Below, piece by piece: positions 14,816 through 16,007 of a DNA stretch of 64,000 nt (positions are counted from its first letter, which is position 1; every line of letters begins with the position of its first letter). The position numbers and the translations under genes were made by a program. The DNA is from Syntrophus aciditrophicus SB (lineage in GTDB: Bacteria; Desulfobacterota; Syntrophia; Syntrophales; Syntrophaceae). The notes beneath the pieces were generated by a model that ran no database searches, had not been told where the DNA came from, and saw only the letters and a program-made list of their open reading frames with translations. The stretch is from contig NC_007759.1 of the NCBI RefSeq assembly GCF_000013405.1, positions 2,667,001 to 2,731,000 on the forward strand, in the 5' to 3' direction.

Positions 14816-15007
14816 TTATGAGCTCCTTCGTCTCTGAACCTTGGCAAACCGACGCCGCGCTTCGATGGCTTTTCTCTTGCGCTTTACGGAAGGTTTCTCA
14901 TAGGCTCTGCGGACCTTCAGTTCCTTGAACAGTCCACTTTTGGAAAGCTTGTTTTTCAAGATTTTCAAAGCCTTTTCCACGTCATTGTCAAATACTTTGA
15001 CTTCCAA
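14816..15007 (-). CDS. rpsU: 30S ribosomal protein S21
   Basis: 63 residues, strongly basic, with the family signature KSGLFKELKVRRAYEKPS and the arginine-rich tail RRRFAKVQRRR. The start codon is TTG 15007, with AGGAGG six bases upstream; no nearby ATG or GTG fits. S21 sits near the mRNA exit of the 30S subunit and helps initiation. It stands alone, ~230 bp from the LOG gene. Confidence 0.97.
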   Translation of the reverse strand: MEVKVFDNDVEKALKILKNKLSKSGLFKELKVRRAYEKPSVKRKRKAIEARRRFAKVQRRRSS

Positions 15008-15340
15008 GTTATACCTCCTTTTTGATTTTCAGAAATTTCCAGAAATTGGTTTGTAATTTAAAACGTCACCCCCATCTCCCGTCCCGCGTTCCACGGTGAG
15101 GGAACCCCCTTGGCAAAAGGGTCAAGGATATATGACGCTTTACACTCTTACAGGAAAACGGAAGGACTGACGCTTATGGTGCTTTTGTTTCGGTTTCGAT
15201 GGACTGAACCGGACATGAAACTTTCAAGAATGAAAGGATGGATCAAAAGACATTTATGAAAAAAACAAGCTGATAATCCGCTCAAACCGGTAAGAGACTT
15301 ACCGGATCAGATGCCCCATCTAGTTTCCCTCCGCTGTATT

Positions 15341-15394
15341 AAAAAAAGGGCAGCACGGCTCATCATGATCTGCTCATGCCGTAGACTACCCTTT
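15341..15394 (-). terminator. Intrinsic terminator of the candidate sRNA / gcvH-like transcript
   Basis: On the minus strand AAAGGGTAG-TCTACGGC pairs with GCCGTGCTGCCCTTT, with an inner CATGA/TCATG hairpin, then seven Ts. The plus strand also reads into a T-rich stretch, so it may act in both directions. Confidence 0.75.
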
Positions 15395-15542
15395 GTTTTA
15401 TCAATATAATTTTACCACACTCCTTACCGGGCAATTATGCCTTTATCTAATATCTTAAATACCTCAAAGTTTTTTATCTTTGTTGCCCCCCGTTTTCAAG
15501 CCTGCCTGATCGGAAGGGATGCGGATCTTACAGTCGCGCAGG
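15341..15542 (-). ncRNA. Candidate structured small RNA (~200 nt), unassigned
   Basis: The unit is bounded by a sigma-70-like promoter (start near 15542) and a terminator (T-run 15341-15347). Inside, GGGCAA and TTGCCC, about 50 nt apart, enclose a CAAAG/CTTTG hairpin, giving a multi-branch fold. There is no ORF with a ribosome site. It matches no riboswitch, 6S RNA, SRP or tmRNA motif that I can recognise. It could also be only the 3' untranslated region of the gcvH-like gene plus its terminator. Family unknown. Confidence 0.5.
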
Positions 15543-15548
15543 AAGGAT

Positions 15549-15577
15549 TGTATACGCAATGTTAATTAAAATTGCAA
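15549..15577 (-). promoter_or_regulatory. Sigma-70-type promoter inside the rpsU/gcvH gap
   Basis: TTGCAA (15572-15577) and TATACA (15549-15554) are separated by exactly 17 bases on the minus strand. Transcription would start near 15542, 75 bp after the gcvH-like stop codon, with no downstream protein gene before the terminator at 15341. Confidence 0.6.
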
Positions 15578-15617
15578 CCTAAAATTGATAACGGCCTGAA
15601 AAAAAAGAATGAAGAAT

Positions 15618-16007
15618 CTATTCTTCCTCGGCAATGTAATCCTGATACCCCTGGATTTCCAAAAGATCATCCAGTTCCTCCGGATCTTTCATTTCGATGA
15701 CCACAATCCAACCCGCATCATAGGGATCACTGTTCAGGATAGTCACATCCTCCATGATGTCTTCGTTGACATTGACGATTTCTCCCGATAAAGGCGAAAC
15801 CAGTTCAAATACGTCATTTGCAGACTCAAGCGTTCCAAAAGGTTCGTCCCTCTCGACAAAGGAGTCCACTTTGGGCAGATCGACCTCGTCCACGTCTCCA
15901 AGTTTTTCCTGGGCGTAATCCGTAATGCCCAGCGTGGCCATATTACCGTCAACGGCAACCCAAATGTGTTCACGACTGTAAAGAAGATCATCTGGAAATA
16001 TTTTCAT
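15618..16007 (-). CDS. GcvH-like protein lacking the lipoyl lysine
   Basis: 129 residues, normal glycine cleavage H-protein length. YSREHIWV, GITDYAQEKLGDV, the ESAND segment and VSPLSGEIVNVNE align along the whole family. Where H proteins have ESVKA with the lipoylated Lys, this one reads ESAND, with Asn64 (codon AAT) in the lysine position. Without that lysine it cannot carry lipoate and so should not work as a standard aminomethyl carrier. No other glycine-cleavage gene lies nearby. It may be a non-canonical paralogue, a decayed copy or a sequencing error. It lies 24 bp downstream of the M24 peptidase gene on the same strand. Confidence 0.85.
   Translation of the reverse strand: MKIFPDDLLYSREHIWVAVDGNMATLGITDYAQEKLGDVDEVDLPKVDSFVERDEPFGTLESANDVFELVSPLSGEIVNVNEDIMEDVTILNSDPYDAGWIVVIEMKDPEELDDLLEIQGYQDYIAEEE

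Follow-up and report, generated by a model that had tools for sequence, protein, structure and literature searches.

Most of the Syntrophales genomes that we examined carry a leader element of rpsU, the gene of ribosomal protein bS21, which is absent from Rfam and would be a new variant of ribosomal-protein leader. In the window, the whole stretch of 64,000 nt of the Syntrophus aciditrophicus SB genome that was analysed, the element occupies 89 nt of the minus strand (15340..15428), as delimited by alignment and by a covariance model (R1). It consists of an extended Shine-Dalgarno (SD)-like motif complementary to the 3' tail of 16S rRNA (15414..15425), an A/T-rich spacer whose sequence varies among unique elements (15392..15413), and an intrinsic-terminator hairpin with a nearly invariant stem and a T-run (15341..15391). 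On the same strand, it lies between its upstream neighbour gcvH (15618-16007; PF01597) and the proposed target gene, rpsU (14816..15007; PF01165, 1.9e-20), which has a TTG start codon. Judging from sequence, we hold with moderate confidence that the element is a 5' leader of rpsU that would work as a transcription attenuator, in which an extended SD devoid of a start would bind the 30S subunit.

A sequence-only reading had proposed here an independent small RNA of about 200 nt, running from a TTGCAA-17-TATACA promoter on the minus strand to a T-run terminator and encoding no protein. The promoter-like block, read directly from sequence, is present (15549..15577; TTGCAA at 15577-15572, TATACA at 15554-15549) and would place the start of transcription near 15542. 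The block, TTTTAGGTTGCAATTTnAAnnAAnATTGCnTATAnA, is preserved in both Syntrophus congeners that match, but it agrees with the consensus at only 8 of 12 bases, and our promoter scan did not report it. A third congener (G003) yielded no match, nor any rpsU. The terminator is there as described: the sequence shows a hairpin of 12 pairs that includes a 2-nt bulge (GGGTAGTCTACGGC / GCCGTGCTGCCC) and is followed by seven T (15347-15341), which the simple terminator scan did not report, probably because it accepts only loops of 3-8. When the 216 nt between 15550 and 15335 were shuffled 200 times, only three of the shuffled sequences folded at least as well (z = -2.74), and there is indeed no ORF of at least 40 aa on the minus strand from the gcvH stop to the terminator. 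The proposed inner structure, GGGCAA/TTGCCC around CAAAG/CTTTG, fared less well: the TTGCCC arm is kept, whereas both matching congeners lack the GGGCAA arm as well as the CAAAG/CTTTG pair, and we rejected this hairpin. The strongly conserved part is 15428-15340. A second hairpin, CCGGTAAG-TCT-CTTACCGG, lies 3' of the terminator on the same strand (15287..15305); by-eye comparison within Syntrophus shows its pairing preserved through two-sided changes in two congeners.

The small-RNA proposal depended on conservation in relatives, and the element is conserved across the order. A plain DNA search of the Syntrophales gave recurrent matches to query positions 191-277, and model R1, built from an alignment of 27 copies with 30 invariant columns, matched 126 of 155 genomes and 42 of 53 genera, with one false match. 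There was one match in 123 genomes and two in 3. The false match (L157, in G106) stands beside unrelated genes; the copy before rpsU in the same genome has kept the motif and lost the hairpin. We discarded this match and two low-score antisense ones (L087, L048) from the 131 model matches, which left 128 true copies in 125 genomes. Ten of the 29 genomes without an R1 match also lack a match to rpsU, and another (G037) has a copy of the element disrupted by a run of N. In a phylum sample of 395 genomes, searched with stricter filters under which weak matches can be lost, all 14 matches fell within the order. One strict pattern run over the genome contigs of 84,980 species retrieved 65 stretches, from records filed as Syntrophus, Smithella, Syntrophaceae and the like, or only as 'Deltaproteobacteria', with the exception of one 'Paludibacter'. 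The latter contig (L233) has gcvH, the element, rpsU and LOG in the order of the Syntrophales, and its bS21 is 90% identical to that of the window; it is probably mislabelled.

The claim that no known RNA family is involved held: at the gathering threshold, Rfam returned only tRNA elsewhere in the window and nothing on the element, and at E<=10 the stretch 15000-15650 gave only two snoRNA matches (E 0.08 and 1.9), which we judged to be due to chance. We thus rejected a known family. Literature searches, mostly conducted without opening the full texts, returned no description of an rpsU leader in Syntrophales or in other Desulfobacterota. Covariation, with two-sided changes in 1 of 13 predicted pairs of the stem, leaves little to judge, because the stem hardly varies.

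The element is associated with rpsU. The gene lies within 500 nt downstream and on the same strand for 119 of the 128 true copies (in L047 its start falls in an N run), while the gene upstream varies, being gcvH in Syntrophus and hisC in most other genomes; hisC precedes 97 of the 131 model matches. Six more copies (L038, L043, L060, L124, L129 and L137, in G009, G010, G112, G113, G130 and G131) are followed by carA and, 4-5 kb further along the same strand, by carB and rpsU, the interval between these two genes being free of the element. The extra first copies of two genomes (L083 and L097, in G080 and G081) are arranged as hisC-element-carB-element-rpsU, and one of the 128 copies, in G016, ends at a contig break. 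NCBIfam names hisC, carA and carB in L038, and carB in L083 and L179. All 128 true copies are in the hisC/carAB/rpsU neighbourhood. Since carA or carB stands directly behind the element in eight genomes, sometimes only 20-40 nt away, an attenuator would govern carbamoyl-phosphate synthase there too. Among the 65 named loci from the strict pattern, rpsU lies within 600 nt in 60, carA is next in three (L207, L245, L247), and two (L236, L242) are cut off by the end of the sequence before the downstream gene. The element thus keeps the 5' leader position of a ribosomal-protein leader across genomes (119/128 copies within 500 nt; 60/65 named loci within 600 nt), and its conservation exceeds that of a plain terminator (30 invariant columns in 27 sequences; 126/155 genomes, one false).

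The distances behind the terminator bear on how rpsU is transcribed. In 30 loci the T-run and the rpsU start are 24-60 nt apart, the 24 nt of L120 including the ribosome-binding site, so that a separate promoter would fit barely or not at all; transcription of rpsU therefore probably passes through the terminator in these loci. Four of the 31 shortest gaps do have a promoter-like sequence, matching at 9 or 10 of 12 bases. Over all gaps between T-run and rpsU, a sigma-70 scan reached 9/12 or better in 19 of 119 loci (12.5 in shuffles), near the shuffled level. Just upstream of the element, the same scan found no match of at least 10/12 bases in 119 loci, and 14 with 9 (19.5 in shuffles). The scan missed promoters that are visible by eye, and for this reason we counted TTGACA instead, a choice made after that inspection: it occurs within 300 nt upstream of rpsU in 9 of 119 loci with the element and in 11 of 13 without it (Fisher p 3e-9, a value that overstates independence because the 13 loci come from few families, 7 from f14 and 3 from f18). 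These 13 are what remains of 20 rpsU loci after exclusion of L173 (own genome), L166 and L172 (carB upstream), L167 (N run), L168 (degenerate match), L177 (rpsU start unplaced) and L178 (element with an N run).

These data weigh on the hypothesis of an independent trans-acting RNA of 90-200 nt, whose 5' end, complementary to the tail, would bind free 30S as a sponge or as an inhibitor of initiation, whose hairpin and T-run would be an ordinary terminator of small RNAs, and whose position would simply be inherited. In Syntrophus, the promoter block and the terminator do delimit some 200 nt, the distance to rpsU is about 240-470 nt from the terminator (about 400 nt from the motif to the rpsU start in the window), and the primary sequence of the motif is conserved like a seed. 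Small RNAs of the Hfq type have a 5' seed and a 3' terminator, and the element resembles them in having a conserved 5' motif followed by a terminator; it differs from them in that the motif is complementary to 16S rRNA and tied to one gene neighbourhood. A free RNA fits less well with copies that remain close to rpsU while the upstream genes change, that never leave the hisC/carAB/rpsU neighbourhood, and that in 30 loci leave rpsU hardly any room for its own promoter. We consider this hypothesis unlikely. A conserved RNA-like element with a promoter block and a terminator stands as first proposed, its independence is less well supported given the linkage to rpsU, and a cis-acting leader or attenuator of rpsU fits better. 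Under the latter, Syntrophus would still make a terminated RNA of about 200 nt.

The motif is AAGGAG-N-GUGRU, at positions 4-15 of the element. The pattern [AG]GG[AG]GNGTG[AG]T is found in 122 of 124 unique elements, and the strict form AAGGAGNGTG[AG]T, with AAGGAG, in 77. In the window the motif is GTAAGGAGTGTGGT, i.e. AAGGAG-T-GTGGT, and the inserted base is at 15419. The 16S rRNA gene of Escherichia coli ends in GGATCACCTCCTTA, the complement of which is TAAGGAGGTGATCC, and the motif is this complement plus one inserted base; an ordinary SD is without the inserted base seen in the element's tail complement. All our pairing figures were computed with the tail of E. coli, which may not be that of Syntrophales, because a pattern search for the 16S 3' tail located none in the 155 Syntrophales genomes. 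The motif is predicted to pair with this tail at a mean of -16.0 kcal/mol, whereas motifs with shuffled bases have a mean of -6.6 (sd 2.6). In an analysis with ViennaRNA duplexfold on 118 loci (the 119 less L047), the threshold of -13 kcal/mol for extended SDs, which was derived with free_scan (PMC9976891), is passed by 116/118 leaders and by 12/118 rpsU initiation regions with the same tail, so the extended SD does not generally coincide with the translation start site of rpsU. The leader motif pairs better than the initiation region in 109/118 loci; it is the best tail-pairing site within 1 kb in 80/118, and another 18-mer equals or beats it in 38/118.

The way the motif varies can be followed on a tree of 108 taxa, those of 126 copies with a LOG gene of at least 140 aa, the first copies of G080 and G081 being left out. 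The five sites facing C changed once in total and the two facing A never did. The four sites facing U changed 29 times, 22 of them between A and G, which both pair with U, the other 7 involving T at positions 4-5, at the end of the helix. At the two sites facing G, 17 of 25 changes were between C and T, both of which pair with G. For the inserted base we counted 12 changes, and it was never G. Transitions also dominate outside the motif (39 of 41 changes at positions 1-3), so their excess alone proves nothing, and the argument rests on which sites are invariant. The pattern is compatible with pairing to an invariant 16S tail. Constraint from the upstream gene might account for the same conservation, since an upstream ORF of at least 70 codons has its stop codon at motif position 3 or 12 in 77/128 loci. 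We rejected it because the motif is intact in 40/40 loci where no ORF end overlaps it. No intramolecular partner of the motif is evident (mean unpaired probability of 0.37-0.81 at positions 4-15), and we found no antiterminator helix.

A leader bound by a protein would also conserve sequence. The consensus of CsrA is ANGGA, and one can conceive that CsrA, or free bS21 as in a classical ribosomal-protein leader, binds the GGA motif or the stem and controls termination, in line with the near invariance of both. Known leaders of ribosomal protein genes can use conditional terminators (PMC7247131), and the Syntrophales element resembles them in being a conserved 5' leader of such a gene with an intrinsic terminator; unlike them, it shows complementarity to rRNA instead of mimicry of a protein-binding fold, and the main text of that work mentions neither S21 nor rpsU. 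We regard control by a bound protein as distinctly unlikely, because the choice of variable sites in the motif, and of the bases that replace one another there, is that of a sequence paired with a fixed partner.

Finally, the element could be a strong terminator that serves the gene before it, gcvH in Syntrophus and hisC elsewhere; its SD-like motif would then be kept by descent, and rpsU and carA would use other promoters. This is very unlikely: the conserved hairpin and T-run, the frequent overlap of the motif with the end of the upstream ORF, and the position after hisC that is kept even when carAB lies behind speak for it, but terminators are not generally known to preserve the same stem throughout an order. 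In Syntrophus, moreover, the element still accompanies rpsU although hisC is no neighbour; the motif persists wherever no ORF overlaps it; and the T-run can be followed by the start of rpsU or carA after only 20-60 nt.

If the motif attracts 30S subunits, they would find nothing to translate nearby. There is no ATG, GTG or TTG starting at element positions 12-23. A GTG at positions 11-13 occurs in 123/124 unique elements, one base 3' of AAGGAG, and is followed by a stop within six codons in 114/124; a start codon, mostly TTG, is at position 26 in 36/124, 16 nt after AAGGAG, which we judged too far. We rejected a leader peptide for lack of a conserved start codon at a usable distance. The spacer, in spite of its variable sequence, separates the end of AAGGAG from the stem by 23-31 nt in the 119/124 unique elements where this is measurable, which would put the hairpin at the front of a bound 30S or slightly past it.

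The start site of rpsU has its own peculiarities. The start codon is TTG at the aligned position in 133 of 134 genes across the order and CTG in the other, and 120/134 genes have no in-frame ATG in the preceding 90 nt; with such a weak conserved start, translation of rpsU would lean on its SD. In family f15, the initiation region carries GGAGGTGA[TC] in 9 of 17 loci (L135, L139, L144, L145, L147, L149, L151, L152 and L154), with energies of -16.4 to -21.4 kcal/mol against the E. coli tail. Eight of these nine genomes also retain the leader motif, and the exception, L152, has the one broken leader motif (-6.9 kcal/mol) together with the strongest start-site pairing. Family f15 supports a link to bS21. 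A start-site extended SD (-18.7 kcal/mol) is also present in G106 (L188), the genome in which the leader hairpin is broken.

Extended SDs have been associated with rpsU before. In Flavobacterium johnsoniae and other Bacteroidota, bS21 is described as regulating its own synthesis through an extended SD at rpsU: in Flavobacterium, a ribosome devoid of bS21 has its 16S tail free and translates rpsU by way of this SD (PMC9976891). A 2024 review presents the Flavobacterium case as unique, in that a ribosomal protein regulates as part of the ribosome, and states that the regulation of rpsU in E. coli remains unknown (PMC10931766). The Syntrophales element shares with the Bacteroidota system an unusually long complement of the 16S tail on the rpsU mRNA, predicted below -13 kcal/mol, and the nine f15 genomes also carry it at the start site. 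In Bacteroidota the translation start site itself is formed by the extended SD, which works at initiation (PMC9976891); in most of the order, by contrast, the motif precedes a terminator, contains one inserted base and lacks a conserved start codon.

Our favoured reading, a leader that attenuates transcription of rpsU, would work as follows. Transcription would come from an upstream promoter, the conserved block in Syntrophus and presumably the upstream operon in relatives linked to hisC. The nascent RNA would first expose AAGGAG-N-GUGRU, which could pair over 11-13 bp with the 16S tail and thus capture a 30S subunit; with no start codon at a usable distance, this capture would not initiate translation. 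The terminator hairpin would then form, about 26-28 nt further on, where the captured particle ends, so that capture might set the read-through into rpsU. What is sensed may be bS21: since this protein neighbours the 16S tail and controls how accessible the tail is, the output of rpsU would follow the ribosomes' need for it. The direction could be either of two: 30S lacking bS21 might raise read-through, or 30S bearing it might enforce termination. Ribosomes without bS21 favour rpsU in Flavobacterium, while for E. coli SD pairing has been attributed to bS21 (PMC10931766, citing work of 1981), and both signs are therefore conceivable here. We propose only tentatively that 30S capture, depending on the state of the tail and hence on bS21 occupancy, switches the terminator, such that the composition of ribosomes would be sensed by attenuation instead of initiation, with a translational version added at the start site in nine genomes of one family.

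If this is true, the sensing of ribosome composition would extend to another phylum and move to the level of transcription, and the element would provide a defined RNA for in vitro tests of 30S capture.
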